41,257 nt of DNA from a virus. The first letter of the stretch is position 1. Each line of letters begins with the position of its first letter. Of this stretch, positions 12,610-28,274 are shown in pieces. The notes under the pieces were generated by a model. It was given only the letters and a program-made list of their open reading frames with translations, was not told where the DNA came from and searched no databases. The DNA lies in IMG/VR virus record IMGVR_UViG_3300037843_000337, positions 1 through 41,257 of that record. One strand, written 5' to 3'. The translations under genes were made by a program, and so were the position numbers.

Positions 12610-15105
12610 ATGTCGACACTCAACGTAGGTGCGATGGCGGCCCGGCTGGGCCTGGACCCTTCAGAATTTCTGGAGAAGATGAAGGGCGTCGAGGGCTTTG
12701 CCTCCGGATCCGGCCAACGCATCGCTGCGGAAATGAAACGCACCTCGCGCGAGGGCGCCGAATCTCTGCGCCTGATCGATGAGGCCCTGGGCGTGCATCT
12801 CTCGCGTCCAGTGACGCGTCTCGTCTCGCAGGAGTTCCCTGCCCTGGCCGCAGGCCTGCAGTCCATCCTGGGCGGAGCCGTGTTCGGCGTGATCGCAATC
12901 GCCGGCGTCGAGGCGTTCGACAAAGTAGCGAAAAAGATCGAGCAGGCGCAAAAGGCGCAGGAAGCCTATCGCGAGTCGACGGAAAAGCTGAAGACTACTT
13001 TCGATGAAATGATGGCCGGCTACGAGAAGAGTGCCGCCGAACGCGGACTCACGGGGATCGACAAGAAAGCGTTCGAGATCGACACGCACTCGCTCAGTGA
13101 AGCGCGACGCCAGCTCGACGAGTTGAGCAAGGGAGCGGAGGACTCGGCGAAGAAAGGCGCCGAGGCCTCTGGCCTCTGGAGTCGTTCCCTTGCCGCCATC
13201 GGAGACGCGATCCACGTCGTCTTTACATCGAGCGCGAGGCTCGGGGTGGAAGAGACGAACAAACAATTTGCAGAAATCAGGAGGCAGTTGGATGCGATCG
13301 CGGTTGCCAGTAGCGCTAATCCGACGAAAGGACTGAAAGATCAGCTCGCTGAGGTCGAGGAAGAGGCCCGAAAAGCTGCGGCTGCGATCGCAGCTCTGGT
13401 CGAGGATCAAAAACGAACACTCAACGTCTATAGCGGCCCAGGCGCGGGGCCGGCCATTTTGCACCCCGACCACAGCGGAGAAATCGCCGCGCAACAGGCG
13501 CAGCTAGATCTCATCACGAAGCAACGCCAAGTGCTGGAAGCGATCCTCGCCGACAATGCTGCAGGCAAGGCTGCGGCCGCAGCGTCGGAGGCTTCAGCGC
13601 AGCTGGAAAAGCAACAGACGGCCATGGAGAGCTTCTATCGCGAGGTGCAGGGCAGCTACTCGAAGCTCACTCCGATCGCGAATCCATTGGTGAAGGTCGA
13701 AGCGGATCTCGAAGAGATGCGCATGAAGGCCGACAACGATTTCGCGGCGCTCGCGGCCTCCGGGGCGAACGCTCTCGAACTGCGGCTCGCGCGGCAGCGG
13801 CTCGACGAGTTCACGAGTTATTTACATCAGAAGATGGCCGAGGCCCGCAAGGATTCCGATCTCTGGGCCTCCGAGCAAGCGCTTCCGAACGCGCTGACGA
13901 TCGCGCCGGCGGGACCGATGGCAGCGTTGCCCACCGCGGCGCCGTCGACTCCAGCTCTCAGCATGGCTCCCATGCGCGCGGACCTCGCTGAACTTGAGAA
14001 GGTGCAGACCGACGCGAATGCAGCCTGGGCGAAAGCCGGCCAGGTGCTCCAGTCGATCGAGTCTCCTGCGGAAAAAGTTCAGATCGAGCTGGAGACGCTG
14101 CGCACGTTGCTCGACCAGGGCCGCATCAGCGAACAGCAATACAACGCAGCCGTCGCGCTGACCAGCGAGCAGCTCACGAAGGCCGCGATCCATGCGCGCG
14201 AGCTGCAGGAGCAATTAGAGAAGCTCGAAAAAGATAGCACCTCGGCCAGTTCGGGGATGAAGGCGTTCCTAACTCAGATCCAGCTCACGGGCAGCGAGAA
14301 CGGCCGCGCTGCTTTCAACTTACTAAGTCAGGGGCTCAACAGCTTCGAAGATGACACCGTGAAGATACTCGAACACGGGCGAGTTAGTTGGCGGAAGTAC
14401 TTCGAAGATCTGGCGGCGATGGCTCTGAAGTTTATGGAGACGAAGACGATCAGCCAGATCGGAACTCAGCTCGAAGCTGCTGTCGTCACCCATCGCAGCA
14501 CGAACATTGGGCCACAGGGCGCCATCTCCAGTTTCGATCAGCGAATGCTTCAGCAGGAATTGCCCTTGCCCCAGGCGCTTCCGCCGGCAGGGTCTCTCAG
14601 CGCCGCAGGAGCTAGTGTTCCCGGCGCTGCCAGCAGCACCGCGAGCATGACCAGCGCCGGAACAACTCTCACCACGGCCGGCACCACGCTCAGCACCGCG
14701 GGCACCAGTCTTTCCGCGGCAGCCGCGGCACTGAACGCCGCGGCGGCCAGCATGAGTGCGACCGGAGCCGCCGCGGGCGCAAGCGGCGCGGCTGATGCCG
14801 GAGGGATCTCGAGCTTCGCAGGTTTTTTTGCCGGCGGCGGCGACGTCATGCCCGGCCAGGACTTCATTGCCGGAGAAGCGGGACCCGAGCTGATCCACGC
14901 CGGGAGCGCTGGGGCGAATGTAAGTCCCAATTCAAAGCTCGGCGGCGGAACGATCTACAACGATTTCAGGGGCACGGTGATGACGGATGACCTGATGCGG
15001 CGCGCCGAAGGGATGCAGGCCATCCAGCACAGCGAGAAACGTATGATGGCCGCGATCCCCACTCTGCAGCGCGAGATCAACCTGCGCCAGCGGACGAACC
15101 GCTAA
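12610..15105 (+). CDS. Tail tape measure protein
   Basis: 831 residues, the second-longest product here. Residues 78-103 form a hydrophobic segment (ILGGAVFGVIAIAGVEAF). Long helical stretches full of Ala, Lys, Glu and Gln follow to about 590, then an Ala/Ser/Thr-rich low-complexity region (about 660-725). The end has FAGFFAGGGDVMPGQDFIAGEAGPELIH, the G-E-x-G-P-E-L motif typical of tape measure C-termini. Its position after the G/GT chaperone supports the call. At about 0.15 nm per residue the tail would be near 125 nm, similar to lambda. Confidence 0.92.
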   Translation: MSTLNVGAMAARLGLDPSEFLEKMKGVEGFASGSGQRIAAEMKRTSREGAESLRLIDEALGVHLSRPVTRLVSQEFPALAAGLQSILGGAVFGVIAIAGVEAFDKVAKKIEQAQKAQEAYRESTEKLKTTFDEMMAGYEKSAAERGLTGIDKKAFEIDTHSLSEARRQLDELSKGAEDSAKKGAEASGLWSRSLAAIGDAIHVVFTSSARLGVEETNKQFAEIRRQLDAIAVASSANPTKGLKDQLAEVEEEARKAAAAIAALVEDQKRTLNVYSGPGAGPAILHPDHSGEIAAQQAQLDLITKQRQVLEAILADNAAGKAAAAASEASAQLEKQQTAMESFYREVQGSYSKLTPIANPLVKVEADLEEMRMKADNDFAALAASGANALELRLARQRLDEFTSYLHQKMAEARKDSDLWASEQALPNALTIAPAGPMAALPTAAPSTPALSMAPMRADLAELEKVQTDANAAWAKAGQVLQSIESPAEKVQIELETLRTLLDQGRISEQQYNAAVALTSEQLTKAAIHARELQEQLEKLEKDSTSASSGMKAFLTQIQLTGSENGRAAFNLLSQGLNSFEDDTVKILEHGRVSWRKYFEDLAAMALKFMETKTISQIGTQLEAAVVTHRSTNIGPQGAISSFDQRMLQQELPLPQALPPAGSLSAAGASVPGAASSTASMTSAGTTLTTAGTTLSTAGTSLSAAAAALNAAAASMSATGAAAGASGAADAGGISSFAGFFAGGGDVMPGQDFIAGEAGPELIHAGSAGANVSPNSKLGGGTIYNDFRGTVMTDDLMRRAEGMQAIQHSEKRMMAAIPTLQREINLRQRTNR

Positions 15106-15332
15106 CGAGTGATCGCCCAGAGCACGATCGCGAGCCCCACCGGCAACGCGAGAAACCAGAGCACCAGGTTGCGAAGTAGATAGCGGGCATCGGCCGAGAT
15201 TTCGGTTCGTGGGTTGAACGGCTTTGACTCTATCTCTTCAGTCTGGGTCGCTCGAAGTCTCTGTTCTTCGCGCTCTTCCGCCTCGACTGCGGCAGGCGGC
15301 CGTGCATCCATCCATTGCTTTAACGAACTCAT
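15102..15332 (-). CDS. Small C-terminally anchored membrane protein, reverse strand
   Basis: 76 residues from ATG 15332. The N-terminal 50 residues are charged and cytosolic-looking (ARPPAAVEAEEREEQRLRAT). The C-terminus is one membrane span (LVLWFLALPVGLAIVLWAI). It overlaps the tape measure stop by four bases, tail to tail. It lies backwards in the tail operon behind a promoter-like block (15345-15371) also found before the secreted reverse gene at 25582-25983, so it is probably an accessory gene expressed in the lysogen. Superinfection exclusion is a guess only. Confidence 0.65.
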   Translation of the reverse strand: MSSLKQWMDARPPAAVEAEEREEQRLRATQTEEIESKPFNPRTEISADARYLLRNLVLWFLALPVGLAIVLWAITR

Positions 15333-15344
15333 AGTGCCCCCAGA

Positions 15345-15371
15345 AGTACCGCGCCCGGCGCGGGAAGTCAA
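15345..15371 (-). promoter_or_regulatory. Shared accessory-gene promoter/operator, copy 1
   Basis: Read on the reverse strand: TTGACT (15371-15366), a 17-base spacer, then TACTTC. The spacer contains the inverted repeat CCGCG-N5-CGCGG. The 27-base block matches 26009-26035 at 23 of 27 positions, and each copy lies just upstream of a reverse-strand accessory gene. TTGACT is a good -35; the -10 match is poor. Confidence 0.65.
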
Positions 15372-15393
15372 TAGCCCGAAGGAGTAACTCAAC

Positions 15394-16515
15394 ATGTCAG
15401 GCTGGAACGGAATTTTCTACAACGGGATCTGGTGCTGCGGCGTGGACTTCCTGCCCACGGGCGCGCTCGGCGCGAACTCGGTTTTCAATTCCACGAGCGG
15501 CGCCACCATCGGCCCCACCTATGCCCGCTTCACGGGCAAGGGCGCCCAGCTCAATTCCAACACCTACAACGGCGGCTATCTCGGCAAAGCCCTGGGCGTC
15601 AACCTCGCCTCGATGTACCTCGGCTTCTCGTTCGAGTCGACCGGCCTTCCGAGCTCCGGCCTTTTCATCATTGCGACTTTCTACGACGCCACCGCGGGCG
15701 GCGCGCAAGTTTCGCTTTGCTACAACTCCTCGGGCGAGCTCGGCTTCTACACCGGCAACGGCCTGCTCAGCTACGATCCCTCGATGACTCTATTGACCGG
15801 CTCGACGCTTTCGGCCGTCAACACGATCATCCCGAACTCATACTGTTACATCGAAGTCTTCCTCACCATCAACGCCGGCTCGGGCGTCCTGCAGGTGAAC
15901 GTGAATGGCCCGAGCGTGCTCAGCCTCTCCGGCCTGAACACGCGCAGCACGGCGAACTCCTGGGTCAACTATGTTTACCTCGGCTCTGGCCAGACCAGCG
16001 GCTATGGCAACAACCACAACATCGACGACATCTACATGCTCGACACCACGGGCGCGGCGCCGTTCAACACTTTCCTCGGGCCTGGCAGAATTCAGACGGA
16101 CGGCCCGACCGCGGACAGCGCGACCTCTGGCCTCAACGCCTGGTCATACACCACGCCGCCGGGCACGGATTACGGCTGCTGTGCCAACATCCCGGCCAAC
16201 GCCACCCAGTACTGCTACGACTCGAACCCCGGCGATCGCATGAGCTTCAAGTTTCCATCGCTCGCCACGGCGAAAGTGTTTTTCCTCAACACCTGGTTCA
16301 GCGTGCAGGAGGATGCGAGCGGCACGCGCACGATCGTGCCGATCTTCCGCAATAACTCCATTGACCAGGTGGGGCCTTCGGCAATCTCTCTCGCCACCAG
16401 TTACAGCTACTACAACCAGATCTCTACGCTCGACCCGAACACCGGTTCTGCCTGGTCGAGTGAAAGCGTCGCGACCGCGGCCGGCTGCGAGATTGGGCTG
16501 AAGGTCGCGAGCTAA
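15394..16515 (+). CDS. Tail protein with lectin-like (concanavalin A-type) fold
   Basis: 373 residues; ribosome site AAGGAGTAACTCAAC. NTYNGGYLGKALGVNLASMYLGFSFE, GELGFYTGNGLL and NIDDIYMLDTTGAAPFNTFLGPGRIQT are hallmarks of a LamG/ConA-like beta-sandwich family common beside tape measure genes in siphophages. The DD-Y-x-LDTTG-x-APFN motif is the best marker. It is likely a carbohydrate-binding accessory of the distal tail, helping adsorption. The C-terminal 150 residues form a second beta region with several Cys. Confidence 0.75.
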   Translation: MSGWNGIFYNGIWCCGVDFLPTGALGANSVFNSTSGATIGPTYARFTGKGAQLNSNTYNGGYLGKALGVNLASMYLGFSFESTGLPSSGLFIIATFYDATAGGAQVSLCYNSSGELGFYTGNGLLSYDPSMTLLTGSTLSAVNTIIPNSYCYIEVFLTINAGSGVLQVNVNGPSVLSLSGLNTRSTANSWVNYVYLGSGQTSGYGNNHNIDDIYMLDTTGAAPFNTFLGPGRIQTDGPTADSATSGLNAWSYTTPPGTDYGCCANIPANATQYCYDSNPGDRMSFKFPSLATAKVFFLNTWFSVQEDASGTRTIVPIFRNNSIDQVGPSAISLATSYSYYNQISTLDPNTGSAWSSESVATAAGCEIGLKVAS

Positions 16516-16523
16516 GCTCCCCA

Positions 16524-17708
16524 ATGCCGAATGCAGATTGCGACCAGCTTGTACGCGAAGCCTTTGCTCAAGACACTCGTCACGCCTGCGTTGACCAACT
16601 TGTCCGCGAAGCCTTTGTCTCGCTGCAGGGTTCGAACGCCGTCGCCGACCAGGTCGTCCGCGAGGCGTTCGCCGTCGACGCTCCGCACGCAAATGCGGAC
16701 CAGATCGTCCGCGAGGTTTGGGGCTATGACGTGCCGGCGGCCAGCTGCGACCAGATCGTCCGCGAAGCGTTCGTTGTTCTCACCCCTTTTGCCGGTCCAT
16801 CTATGCCACTTGTCTACCCTCTGACCATTCCCACCGCGCTCGGAGAATCGAAAGCCGATCTCACGAAGTTCGACGCCATCGGCGAATTCATTTCCGAATT
16901 CACCGGCAACGCCGAGCAGCAACAGTGGCAGGACCAGCACTGGGAGCTCGCGCTCGAATGGCCGGAGATGAACTGGGCGCAGTTCGCCGCCTACGACGCA
17001 TTCATCGGCGCGCTGCACGGCAAGCTGGGAAGCTTCCTCTGGGGTCCTCCTCTCGCCACCGCGCCGCGCGGATCGGGGAGTGGGGCCCCCGTGCTGGGCA
17101 CGGGCAATGCCGCCGGATCCGGCGCGTTGGTTACAACCGGGTGGGCCGCAAGCGCAAGCGGGCTGCTGCTGCCAGGCGATTTTCTGCAGGTCGGGCCTTA
17201 TCCTCTGCCCATCGTCTTCGTCCAGGTCACCAGCTCCGGCGTCCTCGAAATTCTTACGAGCGTGAACTGGTCACTAACGCTGCAGACGCTGCTGACCGGC
17301 AACAACGTCAGCTTCGCCGGCCTGACCGGAGCGACATGGCTCAACGGCGCGGTGCTGCAGGTGGGATACATCACGAACGAAGGCGTGGGCTATGGAACCC
17401 TGATCACGATGGCCACAGTGCCTCCGAACATGCCGATTCCCTACAGCGCTGGTGACGACACCGGCAACGTTACTTTCGGCGCCGCGCGACTCTACCAGTA
17501 CGTCGACTCATCTCCGCTCTCAAGCGATAGCGGCGGCAACGCTACCTTCGATATTTTCCCATGCGTGCGCGAAGCCCTGCCCGCGGGCACCCAGATTTCT
17601 CTGCTGAATCCGCAGGGAACCTTCCGCCTGGCCGACAACCGCCGCACAACTTCGGCCGATGAGCGGAAGCTACTCAAGTTGAAGCTGAAATGCCGCGAGG
17701 CCTTCTAA
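16524..17708 (+). CDS. Distal tail protein with five N-terminal DQ(I/L/V)VREAF repeats
   Basis: 394 residues. Residues 1 to about 88 hold five copies of an 18-residue unit with core DQLVREAF or DQIVREVW. From about residue 94 (MPLVYPLTIPTAL) a tail domain follows: FDAIGEFISEFTGNAEQQQW...HWELALEWPEMNWAQFAAYDAFIGALHGKLGSFLWGPP. A central insert (ATWLNGAVLQV...ITMATVPPNMP...GDDTGN) recurs in the tip protein at 19274-21937. The end, FRLADNRRTTSADERKL, suits a ring-forming distal tail protein. An internal ATG at 16803 could give a repeat-less form. Confidence 0.7.
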   Translation: MPNADCDQLVREAFAQDTRHACVDQLVREAFVSLQGSNAVADQVVREAFAVDAPHANADQIVREVWGYDVPAASCDQIVREAFVVLTPFAGPSMPLVYPLTIPTALGESKADLTKFDAIGEFISEFTGNAEQQQWQDQHWELALEWPEMNWAQFAAYDAFIGALHGKLGSFLWGPPLATAPRGSGSGAPVLGTGNAAGSGALVTTGWAASASGLLLPGDFLQVGPYPLPIVFVQVTSSGVLEILTSVNWSLTLQTLLTGNNVSFAGLTGATWLNGAVLQVGYITNEGVGYGTLITMATVPPNMPIPYSAGDDTGNVTFGAARLYQYVDSSPLSSDSGGNATFDIFPCVREALPAGTQISLLNPQGTFRLADNRRTTSADERKLLKLKLKCREAF

Positions 17709-17884
17709 TGCCGGATCCTGCACTCGAAGCCGCGGCCAAGCGCGCCTATACGGCCTTCGTCGAGAGCGCGAAACAATTTCTTCCTCCAGGCGTGCAGCCG
17801 TGGAGCTCGGTCGCTCATGGCGTGCGTGAAGCATGGATCGCGGCCGCGGCGGCTGCCAGAAACGACCATGCCCCGCAATCTTAG
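17708..17884 (+). CDS. Small conserved phage protein with EAW motif
   Basis: 58 residues. ATG 17708 overlaps the previous stop (TAATG), so translation is probably coupled. LEAAAKRAYTAFVESA and PWSSVAHGVREAWIAAAAAA follow a short helical pattern (Y...W..L....EAW) seen in many phage tail and accessory regions. No function known. Its last 17 bases overlap the next gene. Confidence 0.6.
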   Translation: MPDPALEAAAKRAYTAFVESAKQFLPPGVQPWSSVAHGVREAWIAAAAAARNDHAPQS

Positions 17885-18845
17885 CCCCGCCGTCGTCTCC
17901 GCAATCAAGGCGCCGCAAAAGCGCATGGCATGGTTTGCCGAACTCGTATTCGCGAACCAGACCATCTACGTCTGGACCGGGCTCGGCGGCATCACGCCTA
18001 CAGGCCCAGCATGGGATTCGGGCGCGACGTTTCCTTACGGCCAGCAGTTCACCGGCGTCGGCTGGCTCGGCAGCATTTCGAATTTGCCGCAGACGAGCCA
18101 GCTCACGGCTGAGAACATGCGGCTCACGCTCTCGGGCATTCCAACATCCCTCGCCGGCGACGCCATCAATGCCGTGCGCCTGTTCGGCAGCGTCACCATG
18201 TGGCTTGCGTTTCTCGATACCTCGAACAACGTGATTCCCGATCCGCTGCAGATGTGGCAAGGCGCGACCGACGTGCCCACGCTGAGCGACGGCGCCGATA
18301 CCTGCACACTCGACCTCACGGTTGAAAATTCGCTGCTCGCGTTGAATCTCGCTTCCAACCGGCGATACACGACACTCGATCAGCAGCTCGACTTTCCGGG
18401 CGACGCCGGCTTCGAAATGTTGTCCGCGATGCAGGATCTCTATCTGCCATATCCGGATGGAACGCTCAACGGCAGCCACAACATCGGAGGCACGAGCGAC
18501 CTCGGAAATGCGCCGAGCGGCTGCAACGTGCTTACTCTGACGCCTTCCGGAGCGCAGAAGCTCAGTCTTACTGGATCGCTGCAGATGACGGCCGTCGCGC
18601 AGTTTTCGAGCGGCCCCTGGTCCGTCGCCGGCGGCGGTCCTGGATTTGAAACGGTCACGAGCGCGGGTTTGTGGACGACCAGCGACCCGCTAGTGGCGAC
18701 AGTGACGAACGGAACGCTCGCCTGGGTCCCCGAAGGATCCTGGGGAGTAGGCGGCGGTCTGGTCTCGGCGCGCGGCCGCGGCAACTGCACCATCACTTTC
18801 TTTTTCGGCATGGTCTCAGGATCGCTCACGATTTCAGTCGCATGA
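17868..18845 (+). CDS. DUF2163-type tail protein with C-terminal Ig-like domain
   Basis: 325 residues from ATG 17868. MPRNLSPAVVSAIKAPQ, VYVWTGLG-type strands, FTGVGWLGSIS, LTLSGIPTSL, MWLAFLDTSNNVIPDP and NRRYTTLDQQLDFPGDAGFEML follow the DUF2163 (lambda gpL-like hub) pattern. The C-terminus from about residue 240 looks like a BIG2 immunoglobulin-like domain (LQMTAVAQF, LWTTSDPLVATVTNGTLAW, GNCTITFFF), an accessory often added to tail proteins for weak surface binding. It follows the distal tail protein and precedes the NlpC/P60-like gene, a conserved order. Confidence 0.75.
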   Translation: MPRNLSPAVVSAIKAPQKRMAWFAELVFANQTIYVWTGLGGITPTGPAWDSGATFPYGQQFTGVGWLGSISNLPQTSQLTAENMRLTLSGIPTSLAGDAINAVRLFGSVTMWLAFLDTSNNVIPDPLQMWQGATDVPTLSDGADTCTLDLTVENSLLALNLASNRRYTTLDQQLDFPGDAGFEMLSAMQDLYLPYPDGTLNGSHNIGGTSDLGNAPSGCNVLTLTPSGAQKLSLTGSLQMTAVAQFSSGPWSVAGGGPGFETVTSAGLWTTSDPLVATVTNGTLAWVPEGSWGVGGGLVSARGRGNCTITFFFGMVSGSLTISVA

Positions 18846-19270
18846 TGAAGCGCGTACAAAATTGGCCGGCCTTGGTGCCGGCGCACACTCTGCCCACCCG
18901 CGGCCGCACTTTTGAGTGGGGGCGCTGGGACTGCGCGCTGGCTGTCTGCGACGCGATCCGCGCACTCACCGGCGTCGACCCGGGCGCGGAGTATCGCGGA
19001 ACCTATTCGACGGAAGCGGAAGCTCAGGCTCTGATCGCGAAGTTCGGAGATCTCGGAAACTTCGCCGCGACTATTGCAGCCCAGCATGGAATGCAGGAAG
19101 TTGCGCCGCGCCTGGCGCGCCGCGGCGACGTCGTCTTCGTCGACAACAGCACTGCAGAAGGCGCGCTTGGCCTGGTCGATCTAAGTGGAACCTGCGCCGC
19201 CTGCGTTAGCCAGGAAGGCTACAGGCGCGTTCCCATGCGCCGCTGGAAGCGCGCCTGGCGCGTCGGTTAA
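18842..19270 (+). CDS. NlpC/P60-like tail hub protein, DUF6950-type
   Basis: 142 residues; ATG overlaps the previous stop (ATGA). FEWGRWDCALAVCDAIRALTGVDPGAEYRGTY carries the W-G-x-x-DC motif with the candidate catalytic Cys, and ARRGDVVFVDN fits the middle of the fold. The C-terminus (RRVPMRRWKRAWRVG) is typical of DUF6950. Relatives of this papain-like group sit between hub and J genes and may cut peptidoglycan crosslinks on entry. The canonical catalytic His is not obvious, so activity is uncertain. Confidence 0.75.
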   Translation: MMKRVQNWPALVPAHTLPTRGRTFEWGRWDCALAVCDAIRALTGVDPGAEYRGTYSTEAEAQALIAKFGDLGNFAATIAAQHGMQEVAPRLARRGDVVFVDNSTAEGALGLVDLSGTCAACVSQEGYRRVPMRRWKRAWRVG

Positions 19271-19273
19271 CTC

Positions 19274-21937
19274 ATGTCTCGAACTATTGAAGAAATCGGA
19301 ATGATCGCCGGCGGCCTCGCGATGGCGTTCATGGCCGGCCCACTCGGCGTCGAGGTTTTTCAAAATCTCGTCGTCTGCAACATGATGATCGGCGTCGGCC
19401 TGACGACCGCCCTCGCCGGCACGGTTGGCTTGCTCGCTTCAACGCCGCAGCAGCCTTCAAGCCTTTCGCCGCAGGGCCAGCTTCCGATTCAGACGCCGAA
19501 CCCGCTATGGCGCATCGTCTACGGGCTCTTCCAGTTCGGAGGTACCGTCACTTTTGCCGATGGACCTTTCGACGATTGGGTCGGGACCGTCGCCGAGGAA
19601 CCGCCGGAAAACCAGTACATGCAGTTCGTGCACACTCTCTGCGCTCACCAGATCGCGGGCTTCGTTTCCGTCGTTCTCGACGGACAAACTTTTAACTTCG
19701 GCACCGACCTGGTGCAACTGACTTCCGCGAACCAGGTTGTCGTCAACGGCATTGGCCAGGCCATCTTCTGCGGTCCTGTTGGCGCCTGGGGTTTCATCGA
19801 TCTCTGCAATCCCTGGTGTGGAGTGATCTGGTTCGAGTTCGATGCGGGAAACCCCAATTCGAACGGAGCGTGGCCTTATCCCTTTCCCTCGCTGCTTTAC
19901 GGTTATGAGCAGCTCGTCGGCTACGGCCGGTATTTCGTGACCGGTTCTCCGCGCTGGACATCTGCCTGCCTGCAGCAGGGCCGAGCCAAGGTCCACGTGG
20001 GGATGCACTACGAGCCTTACACAAACGAACCGCAGGGCGGCCAGAACGGCGGCCCGCACCCTTACGTGCTGGGCAGTGGACGCGTCCCGACCATCGAATT
20101 CAAAATTCTCGGCCGCATCATCCGGGACTTCCGCATTCAAACGGCATGGCAGGCCTCGACCGTTTTCGCGAAGTACAGCTATGTCATTGCTCTCGGCGCG
20201 TCGGGCTCCTTCTGCGTCTTCGTGCAAACGAACTCTGCCGGGACGAGCGGGGCTACAGCTCCAGCCTTTTCCGGCATCGCCGTCGGCTCTACGGTGAGCG
20301 ATGGCGGCTGCCTCTGGTTGAATGCTGGGGCGCCCACGTATGCCCTCGGCTGCAATAGCTTCTTCACCCCAACGTTCCTCAACAACCCAGCCTCCAACAA
20401 GCTGCAGAAAAACATTCTGATGGCCGATGCCTGGGGCGGCGGCCTCTCCTACGGCCCACTGTCTGAAGGCGGCGAGGTGATCGAAGCTCCGATCGGTTAT
20501 CTGCAATACGCGGGCTCTTCAACATTTGCCAGCGGAGCCAGCGAGCCGGCCTGGGCCACGACGGTGGGAGGAACAACTGTCGATGGCAGCGGGACATGGA
20601 CGTGTCTCGGCCGCTCGATGTACGCGACCGTGCTGCCTGATTCTGATGGAACGGAAAACGAGGGCGGCTTTTCGAATCCCGCGCTCGTCATCGCCGACTA
20701 TCTAACTACGCCGCGCAATCAGTTTGGGCTCGGCGTGCCGCCTCCTTCCGGCAGCTTTGTGCAGGGCGGCTCTTTGTTGCTTCCTATCGCGAAGATCTAC
20801 GTCGGCGCAGGCGTTCTATACATTTACACCGCCGCTACCTTTTCCCCAGCTCTTGCGGCGGCGCTCACTGCTGCTGCTCTCGCCTTCTCTGGCGCAACGG
20901 CTGCGACCTGGATCAATGGGCAAGTGCTTCAGGTCGCCTCGGCGACCGATTGGTTCATCGGAAGCACCTCGGTTGGAACCTTTCTCACGATGGCAACGAC
21001 GCCGCCCGGCATGCCTACCAACTATGGCCCCGCGGGCGATACTGGCAACGCCATTTTCGGCTTCGCGCAATCCATCAATGCCCCGCTCAGTTCCGACAGC
21101 ATTGAGACGATCGTCGCCGCGGCCAACATCTGCGACGAGCCGCAGGCGATCGAAGTTTTCAGCGATGGCACCACGCTCTACGAACGCAGCTACAGCTGCA
21201 ACGGATGCTTCGACTCGAGCTCCGCATACGGCGACGTGCTGAAAGCTCTCGCGCTTTCGATGGCCGGCTACGTCGTCCCGCCCGGAGACTGCTGGCGCGT
21301 TTATGCGGGAAGCTACCAGCCTCCGCTGCTCGCGCTCAGCGACGCCGATGCGCGCGGGCCGATTAAGGCCGAGATCCGGCTCTCTGCGCGCGACAGTTGC
21401 AACGGAGTGAAGGGCCAATACATTCCGAAGTTTGTTCCGATCAATCCGCTGGGCTCGCTTTCGAGCTCGCCGGCCAGCGCCGCCTGGAAGAAAACCGACT
21501 TCCCGCCCGTGCAGCGATCGCAGTACATCGAGGAAGACGGTGGCGTGATTTTGTGGTCTGACATTTCGCTCGACTTCACCCTCTCGCTGTGGATGGCGCA
21601 GCGCATCGCGCGCATCGTTCTCGAGCGCACGCGGCGCCAGATCACGGTATCGCTGCCGGCGAAGTCGACGCCGCTGCAGCTGCTCGCCGGCGATACGGTC
21701 ACGTTCACGCATCCGCGCTGGGAAGGCGTCACGCCTCCAATGCCCACTGTCTTCTTCGTGGCTCACCTCGGTGCGCGCACGGAAGACTCAGATGGATCTC
21801 CGGCGGTCGGCGTTGACCTGGTGCTGCGCCAGACGGATGCGAACGTGTACATGTTCCAGGGCCCAAGCTCCCCCACCAACTTTGGAGATTATTCGCCTTA
21901 CGGCCAGACCGGCATCGGCGCCGGCAACGCGGAGTAA
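19274..21937 (+). CDS. Tail tip/host specificity protein, J-like
   Basis: 887 residues, the longest gene. The N-terminus is hydrophobic (MIAGGLAMAFMAGPLGV, VGLTTALAGTVGLLA), then LPIQTPNPLWRIVYGLFQFGG, as in J-like proteins of soil phages. Three extra modules interrupt it: two W/C modules (about 20167-20340 and 20485-20620, ending DG..W.C.G or similar) and one ATWINGQVLQV module (about 20815-21060) shared with the distal tail gene. The C-terminal third (WMAQRIARIVLERTRRQITVSLP, LLAGDTVTFTHPRW) is the conserved hub part. It probably binds the host receptor. Confidence 0.82.
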   Translation: MSRTIEEIGMIAGGLAMAFMAGPLGVEVFQNLVVCNMMIGVGLTTALAGTVGLLASTPQQPSSLSPQGQLPIQTPNPLWRIVYGLFQFGGTVTFADGPFDDWVGTVAEEPPENQYMQFVHTLCAHQIAGFVSVVLDGQTFNFGTDLVQLTSANQVVVNGIGQAIFCGPVGAWGFIDLCNPWCGVIWFEFDAGNPNSNGAWPYPFPSLLYGYEQLVGYGRYFVTGSPRWTSACLQQGRAKVHVGMHYEPYTNEPQGGQNGGPHPYVLGSGRVPTIEFKILGRIIRDFRIQTAWQASTVFAKYSYVIALGASGSFCVFVQTNSAGTSGATAPAFSGIAVGSTVSDGGCLWLNAGAPTYALGCNSFFTPTFLNNPASNKLQKNILMADAWGGGLSYGPLSEGGEVIEAPIGYLQYAGSSTFASGASEPAWATTVGGTTVDGSGTWTCLGRSMYATVLPDSDGTENEGGFSNPALVIADYLTTPRNQFGLGVPPPSGSFVQGGSLLLPIAKIYVGAGVLYIYTAATFSPALAAALTAAALAFSGATAATWINGQVLQVASATDWFIGSTSVGTFLTMATTPPGMPTNYGPAGDTGNAIFGFAQSINAPLSSDSIETIVAAANICDEPQAIEVFSDGTTLYERSYSCNGCFDSSSAYGDVLKALALSMAGYVVPPGDCWRVYAGSYQPPLLALSDADARGPIKAEIRLSARDSCNGVKGQYIPKFVPINPLGSLSSSPASAAWKKTDFPPVQRSQYIEEDGGVILWSDISLDFTLSLWMAQRIARIVLERTRRQITVSLPAKSTPLQLLAGDTVTFTHPRWEGVTPPMPTVFFVAHLGARTEDSDGSPAVGVDLVLRQTDANVYMFQGPSSPTNFGDYSPYGQTGIGAGNAE

Positions 21938-21951
21938 GTCGAGTAACTCGC

Positions 21952-22041
21952 GTGCTCCATTCCCGTCAGAAGCTTAGAGCCTGGTGGTGGCTGTACCTTC
22001 TGCCGCTCTGGCGGGGCTGGATGAGAAAGGCAAAGCGATGA
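21952..22041 (+). CDS. Possible tiny membrane peptide before lysozyme
   Basis: 29 residues from GTG 21952; the stop overlaps the lysozyme ATG (ATGA at 22038). The product has a Trp/Leu-rich stretch (AWWWLYLLPLWRGW) between basic ends, long enough to insert in a membrane. A small membrane-active peptide beside lysozyme would suit a lysis role, but the ribosome site is poor and the reading frame could be accidental. Confidence 0.3.
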   Translation: MLHSRQKLRAWWWLYLLPLWRGWMRKAKR

Positions 22042-22448
22042 CGCTGCTCGATCAGTTAGTCCGCGATGAGGGAGTAAGGCTCTTCCCCTACGTCGACACG
22101 GTCGGGAAAATCACGATCGGCATCGGCCGCAACCTGAGCGATGGCGGGATCTCGCGCCAGGAGGCAATACAGTTGCTCGCAAACGACGTCGAGAACGCCG
22201 CAGCGCACCTACAGCGGGCGCTCCCCTGGACTCAAGGCCTCGATGACGTTCGCCACGCGGCGCTGGTGAACATGACCTTCAACATGGGCATCGGGCGGCT
22301 CTGCGATTTTACGAAGATGATTGCTGCACTTCGCGTCGAGGACTGGAAAACGGCGCGAAACGAAATGCTCGACTCCCAATGGGCGAAGCAGGTAGGGGCG
22401 CGCGCTCAACGGCTCGCAATCCAGATCGAAACAGGAGTTTGGCAATGA
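22038..22448 (+). CDS. Endolysin, T4-type lysozyme (GH24)
   Basis: 136 residues from ATG 22038 with AAAGG at a good distance; a longer GTG start at 21984 is possible. It cleaves the glycan of peptidoglycan. E11, D20 and T26 fall at exactly the T4 lysozyme catalytic positions (VRDEG...YVDT..KITIGIGRNL), which supports this start. Later hallmarks are ALVNMTFNMGIGRLCDF and a C-terminal Arg-rich helix. There is no signal peptide, so a holin must open the membrane; candidates lie directly downstream. Confidence 0.92.
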   Translation: MTLLDQLVRDEGVRLFPYVDTVGKITIGIGRNLSDGGISRQEAIQLLANDVENAAAHLQRALPWTQGLDDVRHAALVNMTFNMGIGRLCDFTKMIAALRVEDWKTARNEMLDSQWAKQVGARAQRLAIQIETGVWQ

Positions 22449-22645
22449 AACTTAGTAACAACGTCGTTTTCCAAGGTCTCGCGATGATCGTGCAGTACGG
22501 CAATCAGGCGAGTGGCTTCGTCCCCCCGAAAGCGCAGGTCTGGGTCGGTCTCGTGGTTGGACTTGCGCAAGCGGCCGTGGCCTGGCGCGCGCAGTTCTTC
22601 AATCCTGACGGCACGCCGGCGACGACCGCCTACGTGAAAAAGTAA
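22445..22645 (+). CDS. Small membrane-associated protein of the lysis module
   Basis: 66 residues; ATG overlaps the lysozyme stop (ATGA). Hydrophobic stretches VVFQGLAMIVQYG and VWVGLVVGLAQAAVAW could give one or two membrane passes; the end is FNPDGTPATTAYVKK. Coupling to lysozyme makes a holin or antiholin role plausible. The family is not one I can name. Confidence 0.6.
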   Translation: MKLSNNVVFQGLAMIVQYGNQASGFVPPKAQVWVGLVVGLAQAAVAWRAQFFNPDGTPATTAYVKK

Positions 22646-22969
22646 ATGGACCCGTTTCAGGGACTCGCCGATTTTGTTCTCGGCAAACTAAAACAGTCCG
22701 CGATCGCGCTCTGGCTGCGATTTCTCTTCGAGATCCTGTTCAGTGCGATCGTCTCTTTCCTGCTGATCGCGGGATCGGTGCTCGTCTCGTCGCGCAGTTG
22801 GGCGCTGGCTGTGGGCTCCGGAGCGATCAGCGCGGCAGTGGTCATGACCGTAGTCTTCCGCAAGGAAACTTCTCGACTAACTCGCGGGATGTTCGTCGTC
22901 TTGCCCGCGCTCGAAGCCAACAAGGAACTCACCACCGACTTACAAACCATTCAGAAACCGGAGAAATAA
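22646..22969 (+). CDS. Two-span membrane protein, holin candidate
   Basis: 107 residues; ATG starts right after the previous TAA. Two hydrophobic helices: FEILFSAIVSFLLIAGSVLV and WALAVGSGAISAAVVMTVVF, separated by a short SSRS turn, with a charged C-terminal tail of 40 residues. Two spans plus a charged tail beside lysozyme is a class II holin-like layout. An alternative is a spanin-like accessory. Confidence 0.65.
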   Translation: MDPFQGLADFVLGKLKQSAIALWLRFLFEILFSAIVSFLLIAGSVLVSSRSWALAVGSGAISAAVVMTVVFRKETSRLTRGMFVVLPALEANKELTTDLQTIQKPEK

Positions 22970-22970
22970 C

Positions 22971-23288
22971 ATGAAGGTCGCAACTCTAGAAACCGATGTC
23001 CTCGACATCGCGAAGAAGGTCAAGGAAGGGCTGGCAGCGGCAGAGGGCGATGCCGTCAAGGTCGCCTCGTTCATAGAAAACAATCAGAGCGAGATCACCG
23101 CTCTCGCCAGCCTCGGGGGTGCCGGCACAGCCGCTGTTACCAACGTGGCGCTGGGTCTACTGAATACGGTCATCACGGCCGTCAAAGGAGCGGGCGCCGC
23201 GGGCGCGGCGAACGGGCTCAGCGTGAGCCTGGACGCGGCAACCATCGCCGAAGTGGAAGCCGCGATCGCTGCGATCGAGAAGCTCTAG
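22971..23288 (+). CDS. Ala-rich amphipathic protein of the lysis module
   Basis: 105 residues; ribosome site GGAGAAATAAC overlapping the previous stop. The first half is a charged helix (VLDIAKKVKEGLAAAEGDA). The centre is a weakly hydrophobic Gly/Ala segment (LASLGGAGTAAVTNVALGLLNTVI), and the end is acidic (EVEAAIAAIEKL). It could be a peripheral membrane protein or a minor structural protein. Unknown family. The 120 bases after it hold only very short open frames. Confidence 0.55.
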   Translation: MKVATLETDVLDIAKKVKEGLAAAEGDAVKVASFIENNQSEITALASLGGAGTAAVTNVALGLLNTVITAVKGAGAAGAANGLSVSLDAATIAEVEAAIAAIEKL

Positions 23289-23410
23289 CGGTGTTACCAA
23301 GGTGCGGCGGCTGGAGTCGCAAGCGGAACAGATCGACCAGGCCTTCCCCGGCCGCGCCTTGGGGCGCGAACCCCTGGGAGGCCCTGCCTGAAGCGCCGGG
23401 GGATTGACGT

Positions 23411-23638
23411 TTATATTTTGGGCGGGGGAGTGGCGGAGATTTCGTGAGCCATTTGGACGATATCGGAAGGCCGCGCGCTGAAGATGTTTCGACTTCCCGG
23501 ACGTGTGCACGTGAAGTGCACGTCTCCCGAGGCTTCGCCGTGGATTTCGAGGATTCTAGCCAAGGCCGGCGGCTTGTTTTGGGCCAACCTTACTAGCACC
23601 ATTTGCCCGAGAGAAACGTGCATGCCACGAAGGTCCAT
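23411..23638 (-). CDS. Small SH3/KOW-like hypothetical protein, reverse strand
   Basis: 75 residues from ATG 23638. HVSLGQMVLVRLAQNKPPALARILEIHG and RPSDIVQMA suggest a small beta barrel of the kind that binds nucleic acid or protein. It reads against its neighbours, between the lysis module and the next forward gene. On its strand a 20-codon open frame (23655-23593, with TTAGGAG before its ATG) overlaps the start and could act as a leader. Confidence is moderate. Confidence 0.5.
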   Translation of the reverse strand: MDLRGMHVSLGQMVLVRLAQNKPPALARILEIHGEASGDVHFTCTRPGSRNIFSARPSDIVQMAHEISATPPPKI

Positions 23639-23708
23639 GACGGAAACTCTACCATGAAGCTCCTAATTGCCGTCGTCCAGTGCTCCCACAATCTGAAGGA
23701 ACGAGCGC

Positions 23709-24212
23709 ATGAGCACAGCTATCGCCGTTGAAGTAAAAGCTCCACTGCCCGCCGAGGTCGATGCGCGCGCGGAAGCGTTCCACGCGATCGCAACCTCGAT
23801 CGCCGAGAAAAACGAGAAGCTGAAGGAACTCCGCAAGCGGCTCAGCGACTCGGAGATCGCGCTGATCGAACTGGTGCGATCGTTCGGCGGACCTCACGCC
23901 GCGAAGTCGAAGATCCTGCACGGCATCGTGTGGGAAATGGTCGCGACGTTTTCGAAATTCACCGCTGAAGACTCGGTTGCGATCGAGCGTTTTCGGCTCA
24001 CGCTGGTGAGCGCGAAAAAAGGGCGGCTCCTGAAAAAGCTTTTCGATCGTGACGTCCGCTGGACCATGAAGTCCGGCGCCGGCCAGACGCTCGCGGCCGA
24101 GAACCTGGCGCCCAGGCTGAAAGCGGAACTGCTGGGGCTGCTTCTGCTATGCTCCTCCACAAAGGACAAGAAGCCCTCGCTCGACGTCCGCCAGAAAAAG
24201 AAAACCGCTTAG
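23709..24212 (+). CDS. Hypothetical helical protein before the integrase
   Basis: 167 residues, ribosome site AAGGAACGAGCGC. The N-terminal half is a coiled coil (AFHAIATSIAEKNEKLKELRKRLSD). The rest is basic and helical (RFRLTLVSAKKGRLLKKLFDRDVRW, LKAELLGLLLLCSSTKDKK). It is followed at once by a strong terminator, so it closes the late operon or is a single gene. A DNA-binding role is conceivable from its charge. No family recognised. Confidence 0.6.
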   Translation: MSTAIAVEVKAPLPAEVDARAEAFHAIATSIAEKNEKLKELRKRLSDSEIALIELVRSFGGPHAAKSKILHGIVWEMVATFSKFTAEDSVAIERFRLTLVSAKKGRLLKKLFDRDVRWTMKSGAGQTLAAENLAPRLKAELLGLLLLCSSTKDKKPSLDVRQKKKTA

Positions 24213-24244
24213 ATCTGTCGATCGTTCTCCCCGCTCTCCACCTC

Positions 24245-24281
24245 GCCCGGACCGGCCCCGCAGCCGGGCCGGGCTTTTTTT
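24245..24281 (+). terminator. Rho-independent terminator upstream of the integrase
   Basis: A 12-pair GC stem (24245-24256 with 24263-24274, one mismatch), 6-base loop, then seven T's (24275-24281). It separates the lysis/late transcript from the integrase gene, stopping late read-through into it. Confidence 0.9.
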
Positions 24282-24348
24282 GCGGCCGTTGGTCGTAATC
24301 CCAACGGCATCTAGCGCGGACCTTGCACGCGGCAGCGATAGTAACAAC

Positions 24349-25413
24349 ATGCGAGGAACGGGGACGCTCTACCGGCAGCGGGGAAGCCGCTTCTGGTGGA
24401 TGCAATATTTCGACCACGGGCAACGCTTTCGCGAATCCACGGCGCGCGAGCGCTACAAAGACGCCCAGGACGTCCTCAAGAATAAACTCCTCACGATCGG
24501 CGACGGTCCCTCCATGCAATCCCCGCGCCTCACCGTCGCCGGGCTCTATGCGGCCATTGAACGCGACTACGCGACGAATGGCCGCAAGAGCCTTCATCAC
24601 CTGCAGGGCCTCTGGAAAAATCACCTAGAGAACTTTTTCGGCGCGATCGCGGCCGCGGATCTCAAAAGCTCGCAGATCTCCGAGTACATCGGGCAGCGCC
24701 GCGCCGCCGGCACCGCCAACGCTTCGATCAATCGCGAGCTCGCCGCGCTGAAGCGCATGTTTAAGCTCGCCGTCAAAGAGAGTCGCCTGAAGGCTTCTCC
24801 CTACATCGGGCTCCTCGAGGAGCGCAACGTGCGGAAAGGTTTTCTGCGCGACGCGCAGTACGATGCCCTGGCGCGCGAGACGGCGAAGGCTGGGCTGTGG
24901 CTGCGGGCGATGTTTGAAGTCGCCTACACTTTCGGCTGGCGCAAAAGCGAGCTCACCGAGATGCGCGTGAACCAACTGGATCTCGTCGAAGGCACGATCG
25001 AGCTGAACCCTGGGGAAACCAAAAACGACGAAGGGCGCCTGGTGCTGATGACGGCGCGGATCCGCGCCTTACTCACGGAGTGTATTACCGGCAAGGAAGG
25101 TTCGGACCTGGTCTTCACCCGGGCCGACGGCAAGCCGGCGGGAAACTTCCGCCGCGCCTGGGCGCGCGCGTGCAGTGATGCTGGCGTCCCCGGGTTGCTG
25201 TTCCACGACCTTCGCCGCACCGCGGCTCGGAACATGCGGCGAGCCGGAATCCCAGAGAAGGTCGCGATGCGGATATTGGGGCAGCGCACCAGGTCTGTTT
25301 TCGAACGCTATAACATCGTGGACGCCGCCGATCTTAAACTGGCCGTGGCTGCGCTGGAGCGCCCCGCTGTGGCAGCGCTGGGAGCCGAGCCAGGGCAAGA
25401 GGCCACGCTTTAA
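24349..25413 (+). CDS. int: Tyrosine recombinase (phage integrase)
   Basis: 354 residues from ATG 24349. N-terminal arm-binding part (GTLYRQRGSRFWWMQYFDHGQRFRESTA), a core-binding SAM-like domain (about 60-150), then the catalytic domain. Catalytic residues: R198 (FGWRKSEL), a probable Lys in ETKNDEGR, H286 and R289 (HDLRR), and Y321 (FERYN). The usual His/Trp at Y-9 is Gln312 (LGQRTRSVF), an unusual substitution. It inserts the phage by attP x attB recombination. The attP-like site lies 117 bases downstream. The ribosome site is weak, suggesting low expression. Confidence 0.93.
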   Translation: MRGTGTLYRQRGSRFWWMQYFDHGQRFRESTARERYKDAQDVLKNKLLTIGDGPSMQSPRLTVAGLYAAIERDYATNGRKSLHHLQGLWKNHLENFFGAIAAADLKSSQISEYIGQRRAAGTANASINRELAALKRMFKLAVKESRLKASPYIGLLEERNVRKGFLRDAQYDALARETAKAGLWLRAMFEVAYTFGWRKSELTEMRVNQLDLVEGTIELNPGETKNDEGRLVLMTARIRALLTECITGKEGSDLVFTRADGKPAGNFRRAWARACSDAGVPGLLFHDLRRTAARNMRRAGIPEKVAMRILGQRTRSVFERYNIVDAADLKLAVAALERPAVAALGAEPGQEATL

Positions 25414-25529
25414 CGAACCCTTCCCAGAGGCCCGAAAAGCCGCCGTTTTTCGCCTCCGCGGAGGCCTTCGGGCAGCCATAGAAGCGGCAGAGACCAGCCA
25501 TTTACGCGGGAAAACTGCGGGGTGACTGT
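25414..25529. other. Structured spacer between integrase and attP-like site
   Basis: No gene seen. It holds the perfect palindrome GCCTCCGCGGAGGC (25452-25465) and an outer pair of 7-base arms GCCCGAA (25430-25436) and TTCGGGC (25467-25473). Such symmetric elements beside an attachment core could be arm-type binding sites for integrase or host factors; there is no T-run to make a terminator. Confidence 0.4.
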
Positions 25530-25551
25530 GATTGTTAATCAGATGTCACGG
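25530..25551. other. attP: Candidate attP core, tRNA-Asn anticodon arm identity
   Basis: GATTGTTAATCAGATGTCACGG corresponds to the anticodon loop (TT-GTT-AA), 3' anticodon stem and variable loop (ATGTCAC) of a bacterial tRNA-Asn(GTT). The sequence on either side does not make a tRNA, so this is a fragment. Phage attP cores often copy part of a tRNA gene, and this one lies just after the integrase. Prediction: attB is in a host tRNA-Asn gene. Confidence 0.65.
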
Positions 25552-25581
25552 GCGAGCCGCCGTCCCATTTTCCGGCCCCTC

Positions 25582-25983
25582 TTACCAGGACCCGACAATC
25601 TTCCAGTGCTCGCGGAACTCCTTGTGGTCGACTGGGCGCACATACCTGATCCAGACGTCCGGCTGGCTGCTGGCCTCAGAGCAGTCCTGGCACGATTTTT
25701 TTACCGCCATCTCTGCATCGTACTCGCCGGGAGCCAGGATGTTGCATCCGCTGTGGTTTTCGTAGCACTTCAGCAGCGCATGTTCGCCGTTGATGATGGC
25801 GTTGGTCATGGTCGCCTTCACCGTCGTGTATTCGCCTTTGAAGATGAAACCGCCTTCTACATGTTTTTGGAATCCGTGACTCTGTTCGGCGATCGTAATC
25901 TTCAAAGAGGTGAGGTTCTTCTTCGCCGCAGCCAGTGGAGGGATAACAGAGAGCGTGAGAAATAGAATGAGGGTTGTTTTCAT
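25582..25983 (-). CDS. Secreted accessory protein, reverse strand
   Basis: 133 residues from ATG 25983. Signal peptide MKTTLILFLTLSVIPPLAAA. The mature part has four Cys (KCYENHSGC, SCQDC), suited to two disulphides, and strands such as GGFIFKGEYTTVKATMTNAII. It stands alone on the reverse strand next to the attP-like site, where lysogenic-conversion genes are common, and behind a promoter-like block shared with the reverse gene at 15102-15332. Probably exported by the lysogen to the periplasm or outside. Function unknown. Confidence 0.7.
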   Translation of the reverse strand: MKTTLILFLTLSVIPPLAAAKKNLTSLKITIAEQSHGFQKHVEGGFIFKGEYTTVKATMTNAIINGEHALLKCYENHSGCNILAPGEYDAEMAVKKSCQDCSEASSQPDVWIRYVRPVDHKEFREHWKIVGSW

Positions 25984-26007
25984 GGAGTCAGTCCTCGGGA
26001 CTCCATG
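25981..26007 (-). promoter_or_regulatory. Hairpin over the start region of the secreted accessory gene
   Basis: A 9-base perfect inverted repeat: CATGGAGTC (25981-25989) and GACTCCATG (25999-26007), loop of nine. In the reverse-strand mRNA the ATG start codon lies in the 3' arm and the ribosome site (GAGGA) in the loop, so the fold could limit translation until opened. Confidence 0.6.
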
Positions 26008-26008
26008 T

Positions 26009-26035
26009 AGTACCGCGCTTGCCGCGGAAAGTCAA
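26009..26035 (-). promoter_or_regulatory. Shared accessory-gene promoter/operator, copy 2
   Basis: On the reverse strand: TTGACT (26035-26030), 17-base spacer with CCGCG-N5-CGCGG, then TACTAC. Identical at 23 of 27 positions to 15345-15371. It lies 25 bases upstream of the secreted gene's ATG, so transcripts would have a very short leader made almost wholly of the 25981-26007 hairpin. Confidence 0.68.
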
Positions 26036-26054
26036 GGGTTTGGGATCATGGTGC

Positions 26055-26888
26055 ATGGCCCCCATGGCCCCCAAACTCCTCAAACCCGATCAGTTGGCGG
26101 GAATAGAGGAAAAGCTAAAACGGGCCGACGAGAATATCCTCAATCTCGGCGTCGAGATCAACGCTTTCGTCAAGGACAGCCCCGACACGGGTGCTGCTGA
26201 GCCCAAGGGAAATAAGACTCAGCAGTGGGTTAACTTCCACAAAGATCGAGTCATCCCTCCGCGATTCGGCACGCTTGCGGGCGAGATCGTTCACCATTGG
26301 AGTTCCTGCTTCGATCACATCGCATGGGGTCTCTCCAGTGATAAGTACAGGAGAAAGCATCCGACTCTGATTGCTTTTCCGATTCTGGTCAGACCTCCGA
26401 ATGAAAGAGGACAGGCCCGTTACGACGGAAACATAGAGGGGATCGCCAACAGCACCGCACGTAGACTCATCGAAGATTTGCAGCCACACAAGAGTGCGAA
26501 TCCTGCTGACGAACCACTTGCCATCATCCATGAGTTGGACCGTGTGGACAAGCACCACACGCTCGTCCTGGTTGTCCCGAGCTTCGACGCACAGCTCGTC
26601 ATTCCCCGGAGATTTGTCCTCGGGAGAGTTATCGGCGCTTTTGTACCCAATGAGGATGCGTTTCCCGCCGAGCCTACAGACAGTGGCAAGCTCCAGATTT
26701 CCAGACAGGTAGCGTTCGCGGAGTTTGGTCAGCGGAAAAACCAAGCGGTTGTTCCATCGCTCACGCATCTCTCGCACGAAGTCAGAAACATATGTCAAGG
26801 GATAATTACCTCTGCGATTGTACGTCAGAAGCTCACCGTGACTCGTCGGCCGAACGTGGCGCAGACTTCGCAAAAGCGCAGCCAGTAA
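26055..26888 (+). CDS. Hypothetical cytosolic protein with HELDRVDKHH motif
   Basis: 277 residues from ATG 26055 (ATG 26064 is an alternative). AGIEEKLKRADENILNLG is a helix near the start. GEIVHHWSSCFDHIAWGLS, IIHELDRVDKHHTLVLVV and AQLVIPRRFVLGRVIGAFVP resemble a broad family of bacterial hypothetical proteins I recall by the L..LD..DKHR-type motif. No enzyme motif known. Its last 64 bases overlap the reverse methyltransferase gene tail to tail, so simultaneous transcription would give complementary mRNAs. It may be an accessory gene. Confidence 0.6.
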   Translation: MAPMAPKLLKPDQLAGIEEKLKRADENILNLGVEINAFVKDSPDTGAAEPKGNKTQQWVNFHKDRVIPPRFGTLAGEIVHHWSSCFDHIAWGLSSDKYRRKHPTLIAFPILVRPPNERGQARYDGNIEGIANSTARRLIEDLQPHKSANPADEPLAIIHELDRVDKHHTLVLVVPSFDAQLVIPRRFVLGRVIGAFVPNEDAFPAEPTDSGKLQISRQVAFAEFGQRKNQAVVPSLTHLSHEVRNICQGIITSAIVRQKLTVTRRPNVAQTSQKRSQ

Positions 26889-27343
26889 GCCATCTCTCGA
26901 TCGATGCCGATCGCGCGCCGGCCGACCTTCATTGCGGCCAGCAGCGTAGTGCCACAGCCAGCGTACGGATCGAGCACAACACGGTCCTGACACAGGGCAC
27001 AAGGCCTTCTGGTCATCGCCACCAGCTTGGCCATTTCGTCGACCGGCCGCTGGTTCGGGTGCGCGGCCGTTCGTTGCGGCGCGAGTTGGGGCAGAAAATG
27101 CTTCTCTCCGCGCCAGATGTAGCCGTTCTCTGGATTGGTGAGCACGAGTGCATCAAACTCGACCAGGCCGAGCCGCTTCAGCATCTCGTTGCACTGCTCG
27201 GCGGTTCTGATCGTGTAGGGCGGATCGGTGATGACCACGTAGTCGTCATCGGGCAGCCGCGGAGTCACGTCACCGCAGTCGCCAAGGCAGAAGGCGATCT
27301 GTGGGGCGAAGAGATCTTGCAGGTTTTGGCGACCGATTTTCAC
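26825..27343 (-). CDS. DNA methyltransferase, compact DPPY type
   Basis: 172 residues; ATG 27343 overlaps the HU stop (ATGA), so the two form an operon. VVITDPPYTI is catalytic motif IV (amino methylation of adenine or N4-cytosine). VVLDPYAGCGTTLLAAMKVGRRAIGIDRE is the AdoMet-binding motif I region, in beta-class order (IV before I). HPNQRPVDEMAKLV precedes it, as usual. It is small for the class and has little room for a target-recognition domain. It probably protects phage DNA or marks operators. No restriction enzyme partner seen. Confidence 0.88.
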   Translation of the reverse strand: MKIGRQNLQDLFAPQIAFCLGDCGDVTPRLPDDDYVVITDPPYTIRTAEQCNEMLKRLGLVEFDALVLTNPENGYIWRGEKHFLPQLAPQRTAAHPNQRPVDEMAKLVAMTRRPCALCQDRVVLDPYAGCGTTLLAAMKVGRRAIGIDREMAYWLRFCEVCATFGRRVTVSF

Positions 27344-27624
27344 GAGCGCGATCGGTTCACCAGTTTTTTCAGCTCGGCGCCGGCTTTGAACTTCACCACC
27401 TTCACGGCGGGGATCGTGAGCGTTCTTCCGGTCTGCGGATTGCGGCCCTTGCGGCTACTGCGATGCGCGACGGAAAACGTCCCGAGGCCGATCAGCATCA
27501 CTCGGCCACCTCCGCGCAGGGTTTTCGAGACCGATTGGATCATTGAGTCGATCGCGGCGCTGGCCTGGGCGTGAGAGAGATTGCCGTCGGCAGCGACGCG
27601 GCTTGCCAGATCTGTTTTGTTCAT
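27340..27624 (-). CDS. HU-family DNA-bending protein
   Basis: 94 residues from ATG 27624 with a strong ribosome site (AGGAGGAACTCGACCCT). MNKTDLASRVA, SHAQASAAIDSMIQSVSKTL, GGRVMLIGLGTFSV, RKGRNPQTGRTLTIPAVKVVKFKAGAELKKLVN is a complete HU/IHF chain with the N-P-x-T-G arm. It bends and compacts DNA. Near an integrase it may help form the recombination complex. On its strand TTGACT (27675-27670) could be a -35, and the GTTTGTTAACAAAC palindrome lies further upstream. Confidence 0.93.
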   Translation of the reverse strand: MNKTDLASRVAADGNLSHAQASAAIDSMIQSVSKTLRGGGRVMLIGLGTFSVAHRSSRKGRNPQTGRTLTIPAVKVVKFKAGAELKKLVNRSRS

Positions 27625-27739
27625 AGGGTCGAGTTCCTCCTGACGCCATCTTCAACGGCCGCCGCTGAGAGTCAAGCGAAAAACGCGGCAGCCGCAGTGA
27701 CAGAGCCGTTCTCGACACCGCGACGAGGGCTAGACGCGA

Positions 27740-27753
27740 GTTTGTTAACAAAC
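27740..27753. promoter_or_regulatory. Palindromic operator upstream of HU/methyltransferase operon
   Basis: GTTTGTTAACAAAC, identical to 10161-10174, and the match extends two bases (TA) to 16. It lies about 116 bases upstream of the HU start. A shared perfect palindrome upstream of two reverse-strand operons argues for one phage regulator that controls both. Confidence 0.7.
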
Positions 27754-28237: not shown

Positions 28238-28266
28238 TTGACAGGGTAACCCGGATTACATTACGG
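28238..28266 (+). promoter_or_regulatory. Candidate early promoter
   Basis: TTGACA (28238-28243) is a perfect -35; 17 bases on lies TTACGG, a weak -10 (TACATT at 28257 is closer to consensus but too near). If used, transcription starts about 28273, only bases before ATG 28275, so the first early message would be leaderless or nearly so. It would drive the forward run of small genes. Confidence 0.55.
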
Positions 28267-28274
28267 TTCCCGGC

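Follow-up and report, generated by a model that had tools for sequence, protein, structure and literature searches.

Paired promoter-like blocks ahead of two lone leftward genes in a temperate phage genome

Two short noncoding blocks in a phage genome, identical at 23 of 27 bases, are probably promoters of the sigma-70 type, each of which would drive a single leftward gene of the moron type. The genome is an IMG/VR virus record that was analysed over its whole length of 41,257 nucleotides (41.3 kb, hereafter the window), and its 138-base terminal direct repeat suggests that it is probably a complete circular assembly. Its genes include those of a major capsid protein of the Phage_capsid family, the tape measure, a distal tail protein, a tyrosine integrase and the small terminase subunit, and the source is therefore a temperate tailed phage, probably of the siphovirus type. 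Nearly all genes in the window run rightward, and noncoding DNA makes up ~8.4% of it according to a rough gene map. Apart from the two genes considered below, leftward reading frames are located at 9762–10142 (minus strand, 126 aa) and 23411–23638 (minus strand, 75 aa), and a leftward methyltransferase/HU pair at 26825–27624 (minus strand).

The blocks occupy positions 15345–15371 (copy 1) and 26009–26035 (copy 2), and on the minus strand they read TTGACTTCCCGCGCCGGGCGCGGTACT (15371–15345) and TTGACTTTCCGCGGCAAGCGCGGTACT (26035–26009), respectively. Both start with a -35 element TTGACT (15371–15366 in copy 1), continue with a 17-base spacer that carries the inverted repeat CCGCG-N5-CGCGG and end in a -10 element that begins with TACT (TACTTC in copy 1, TACTAC in copy 2), all of which had been noted in a preliminary description of this DNA and was found again. 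They share the same orientation and lie inside short gaps that separate divergent genes. The string TTGACTN17TACT occurs twice in the window, once in each block and each time ahead of a leftward gene, and never in shuffled sequences; whole-block copies with up to three mismatches likewise number two. Rfam held no match for the blocks, and among phages and plasmids a blastn search with them returned only hits with E values of at least 1.

Each block lies just upstream of a lone leftward accessory gene, in agreement with the preliminary description, the helices of both products being judged by eye. The gene beside copy 1 (15102–15332, minus strand) encodes 76 aa with a C-terminal membrane helix; its ATG is located 10 bases past the -10 element, making it nearly leaderless, and its stop codon overlaps that of the tape-measure gene. 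The gene beside copy 2 (25582–25983, minus strand) encodes 133 aa with an N-terminal signal-like helix, has GAGGA 8 bases ahead of its ATG and is AT-richer (53.5% GC against 61.4%). A family search gave no match for the 76-aa protein. The 133-aa secreted protein had no credible match among families, phages and plasmids, none was present in the genome contigs searched, and its predicted structure has a mean pLDDT of 39. On the other side of the blocks the divergent genes run rightward: a late (tail-region) gene assigned to phrog_2448 (15394–16515, plus strand), the start of which is 23 bases from copy 1, and a gene of unknown function adjoining copy 2 (26055–26888, plus strand), so that both blocks stand ~20 bases ahead of a rightward start.

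We infer promoter activity from the -35/-10 spacing, the distance to the start codons, the depletion and placement of TTGAC(A/T) in this phage, and the -35 and TAC-type -10 of its early promoter. TTGACT is close to TTGACA, and the spacing of 17 bases in both blocks falls within the 16–18 bases of such promoters. In the window TTGACT is seen 6 times versus 12.6 expected and TTGACA twice versus 12.3, a three-fold depletion of TTGAC(A/T), and half of these eight copies lie in noncoding DNA even though only ~8% of the window is noncoding. All four noncoding copies sit 37–52 bases ahead of a start codon; counted from where the -35 begins, two start codons follow at 37 and 39 bases, with no leader or almost none, and two at 51 and 52 bases, with a short leader containing AGGAGG or GAGGA. 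One of them belongs to an early promoter at 28238–28277 (plus strand) that reads TTGACA-18-TACGGT and precedes the leaderless ATG (28275) of an early-region gene, and a related phage (G001, below) has an early promoter TTGACA-18-TACCGT with a different spacer (L030, near 3491, minus strand). The spacer of the window's early promoter carries the near palindrome GTAACCCGGATTAC, which is missing in that relative. A further TTGACT element at 27670–27675 (minus strand) precedes the HU gene (27624–27340) by 51 bases and lacks the spacer of the blocks. The HU-family gene overlaps that of a short DNA methyltransferase, which has 172 aa and a DPPY motif, and the pair (26825–27624, minus strand) forms one leftward operon behind this element.

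One objection to the promoter reading concerns the -10 element. TACTTC and TACTAC, which lack the final T, would rank as poor in E. coli, and a strict consensus scan found no promoter at the blocks; the consensus used is of the E. coli type and may not be that of the host. The early promoters of two phages have a TAC-type -10, which would make both hexamers acceptable, and a TAC-type -10 is plausible in this phage, where such elements seem usual. A second objection is that copy 1 is found in G001 without the leftward gene, where its transcripts would run antisense into the tape-measure gene. If the promoter reading is correct, the two blocks would be copies of one sigma-70-type promoter with a -35 TTGACT, a 17-base spacer and a TAC-type -10, each driving a single accessory gene that was inserted, as a moron-type unit of gene plus promoter, into an otherwise rightward genome. 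The host RNA polymerase would then transcribe the gene of the 76-aa membrane protein from a nearly leaderless start and that of the 133-aa exported protein from a start with a short Shine–Dalgarno leader. Transcription of both genes would be independent of the lytic operons, and would thus probably take place in the lysogen.

Only two relatives with the block pattern were found in IMG/VR, and protein-based searches of IMG/VR returned no others. The first, G002, is a 24.8 kb contig that is nearly identical to the window and retains both copies; the second, G001, is a 39.3 kb contig, ~90% identical where aligned and with large mosaic differences. Copy 1 is kept at 27 of 27 positions in both relatives, whereas the region of copy 2, kept in G002, has been replaced in G001, where no block is present. 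The 76-aa gene is missing from G001, in which CGAACCGCTAG runs straight into TACCGCGCCCGGCGCGGGAAGTCAA: 241 bases are absent, from the tape-measure stop codon to the -10 element of copy 1, and the open reading frame takes up 231 of them. This fit argues for a genuine gene unit, one that differs cleanly in presence or absence between phages. Copy 1 in G001 may either be a promoter that outlived a lost gene or predate a gene that was gained beside an existing block. At the other locus the replacement in G001 begins inside the 3′-terminal part of the 133-aa gene (25661). The mosaic exchange there pairs window positions 25661–27738 (~2 kb) with positions 59–544 of L007 in G001, which holds a single unrelated 139-aa cysteine-containing open reading frame in place of the secreted protein, gene 26055 and the methyltransferase/HU pair.

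The conservation of copy 1 permits two interpretations. From copy 1 to the next gene (52 bases) G001 shows zero substitutions and one 1-base indel, while the flanks are ~12% different, both in the tape-measure end and over the initial 160 bases of the following gene. This is suggestive of a function of the spacer; patchy recombination is a fair alternative, because from 15553 on the window and G001 hardly differ over ~1.9 kb.

The claim that conservation in noncoding DNA implies function was too strong: besides this nearby mosaic stretch, the match itself does not exceed chance. In 20 dinucleotide shuffles, a mean of 1.0 pair of 27-mers per window agreed at 23 positions or more, and the real window contains nine pairs at 23/27, mostly local repeats (a 9-bp tandem repeat was excluded), so that the 23/27 match by itself is no evidence. 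Two tandem repeats in coding DNA may be recorded here: a perfect 51-base in-frame duplication at 12342–12443, in the gene preceding the tape measure, of which G001 has a single copy, and a long 9-base repeat at 32996–33430, which gives the frame 32850–34127 a stretch rich in Ala, Arg, Asp and Leu (ARDALDALDA...). The block pair is unlikely to be due to chance on account of its position and not of its match length, as both copies are noncoding; for such pairs ~0.007 are expected, a figure obtained by plain arithmetic from the shuffle mean and the ~8.4% noncoding share of the rough gene map. Given in addition that the copies have the same orientation, are each followed by a leftward start and both fall on the -35 consensus, it is very unlikely that the likeness is a coincidence between unrelated promoters or intergenic stretches of high GC content, for all that about one 23/27 pair is expected per window. 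The spacers agree at 13 of 17 positions (p ~5e-4 for two GC-rich 17-mers of the window), a likeness for which shared ancestry of the promoter would be the best explanation. An origin as a recombinase core site, or as a boundary sequence for gene exchange, would account for the indel, one end of which coincides exactly with the edge of copy 1, and for the distance of ~600 bases between copy 2 and the integrase gene; we consider it highly improbable, since copy 2 is absent from G001 despite an 86% identical integrase and shared adjoining DNA, and does not lie at the exchange boundary (25661). The same absence makes copy 2 an unlikely attP. It is also quite unlikely that the block acts on the plus strand, as a hairpin or leader of the rightward genes 15394 and 26055, with a leftward gene later inserted beside copy 1. 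The position of both copies ahead of rightward starts agrees with such a role, as do the persistence of copy 1 between the tape measure and gene 15394 in G001 and its folding into a 6-bp hairpin, but the folding is no better than that of shuffles (z ~0 and +0.8 for the plus strand), the plus strand of copy 2 folds otherwise, and the TTGACT and TACT parts are left unexplained. An intrinsic terminator at the blocks was ruled out, there being no T-run.

The preliminary description had further proposed that a repressor or activator bound between -35 and -10 controls both genes together. Its promoter part agrees with the sequence, but the claim of a shared operator is weak and gains no support from recurrence. 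A dedicated operator, at which a dimeric protein of the phage or host binds CCGCG-N5-CGCGG and represses or activates both genes, would add to the promoter reading and not replace it, and we regard it as possible but doubtful. The inverted repeat is placed alike in the two spacers, its arms agree at all ten positions, and of the four bases at which the spacers differ, three belong to the 5-base loop. Copy 1 is moreover unchanged over its 27 bases in G001 between diverged flanks; this last identity could also reflect recent recombination. Against an operator, the palindrome turns up often in DNA as GC-rich as this (6 exact occurrences in the window, and 18 with up to one mismatch versus 13.6 expected), it is absent from the other promoters of this phage, and no phage regulator can be named. 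Scanning IMG/VR with the pattern TTGACTT-N-CCGCG-N5-CGCGG and a control with swapped arms gave four unrelated contigs each, and TTGACTT plus palindrome is thus not enriched among viral contigs. Two of the contigs with the real pattern hold one and the same site within a long open frame, and a third has a repeat-rich site within a 196-codon open frame. The only intergenic, promoter-like match, in the prophage-like contig L020 (TTGACT-17-TATTAT, TTGACTTCCCGCGCAAATCGCGGTATTAT), was taken as chance and not as independent support, the control giving an equal contig count. Recurrence at co-regulated promoters above expectation, the mark of a regulon, was accordingly not observed, with two copies in the window and four contigs against four. 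Nor is the block scattered at random over many unrelated genomes: a stricter block pattern had zero matches in the genome contigs searched. Copies with up to three mismatches were absent from two Granulicella plasmids, chosen on a guessed acidobacterial host. The search across related phages that had been suggested recovered the block in two relatives, yet in G001 copy 1 persists without its supposed target gene. This empty site would suggest that genes come and go while the promoter stays; that a single regulator of CCGCG-N5-CGCGG co-regulates two unrelated envelope-associated genes, with the promoter as a reusable landing site, seems unlikely.

Another sequence in the window is a perfect palindrome, GTTTGTTAACAAAC, at 10161–10174 and 27740–27753, upstream of the leftward 126-aa gene and of the HU operon, respectively. 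It is kept in G001 at both matching places (L029 372–385 and L030 3998–4011), one of them beside replaced DNA, and because of this conservation it is a better candidate than the block for a phage operator or some other binding site; it may also be related to replication.

Morons are independently transcribed accessory genes of temperate phages (PMC6469090). The two genes resemble them in being lone genes that run counter to the direction of transcription, in their own promoter-like elements, in presence or absence among close relatives and, for one of the two, in AT-richness; they differ in that two are found in one genome with nearly the same promoter, spacer included. A scan for a clear intrinsic terminator of the two leftward genes found none. 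In Cluster O mycobacteriophages the SigA promoter PL2 serves a lone leftward gene in the structural operon, with a predicted start at the first codon (PMC4351075), which parallels the predicted host sigma-factor promoter, the setting within a structural operon and the leaderless or nearly leaderless start described here. The 17-bp dyad repeat of the same phages occurs in over 30 copies, mostly not at promoters (PMC4351075), in contrast to two copies here, both inside putative promoters. The start-associated and extended start-associated sequences of Cluster K mycobacteriophages are likewise short conserved noncoding repeats ahead of the starts of unrelated genes; they occur in large numbers, are located at the start codon and have a proposed role in translation (PMC3203893), whereas the block has two copies in promoter position. 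The stoperators of Cluster A mycobacteriophages are numerous asymmetric repressor sites (PMC9283540); the blocks are similar as repeated short sites in a temperate phage and dissimilar in being only two, palindromic and without a known repressor. Many genome-wide copies, as stoperators and start-associated sequences have, are not seen in the window, where two copies exist at up to three mismatches. The Cluster O SigA promoter and the short repeats of mycobacteriophages are the nearest parallels in the literature searched, and the block belongs to none of these.

The blocks represent mostly ordinary phage biology, and the evidence for a shared regulator is thin. If they are promoters, they mark genes that the phage probably expresses outside its lytic programme, and TTGAC(T/A)-17/18-TAC would be a first promoter signature for this phage. 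If the promoter outlives the gene, then regulatory sites, and not only genes, would persist as hot spots for the gain of accessory genes.
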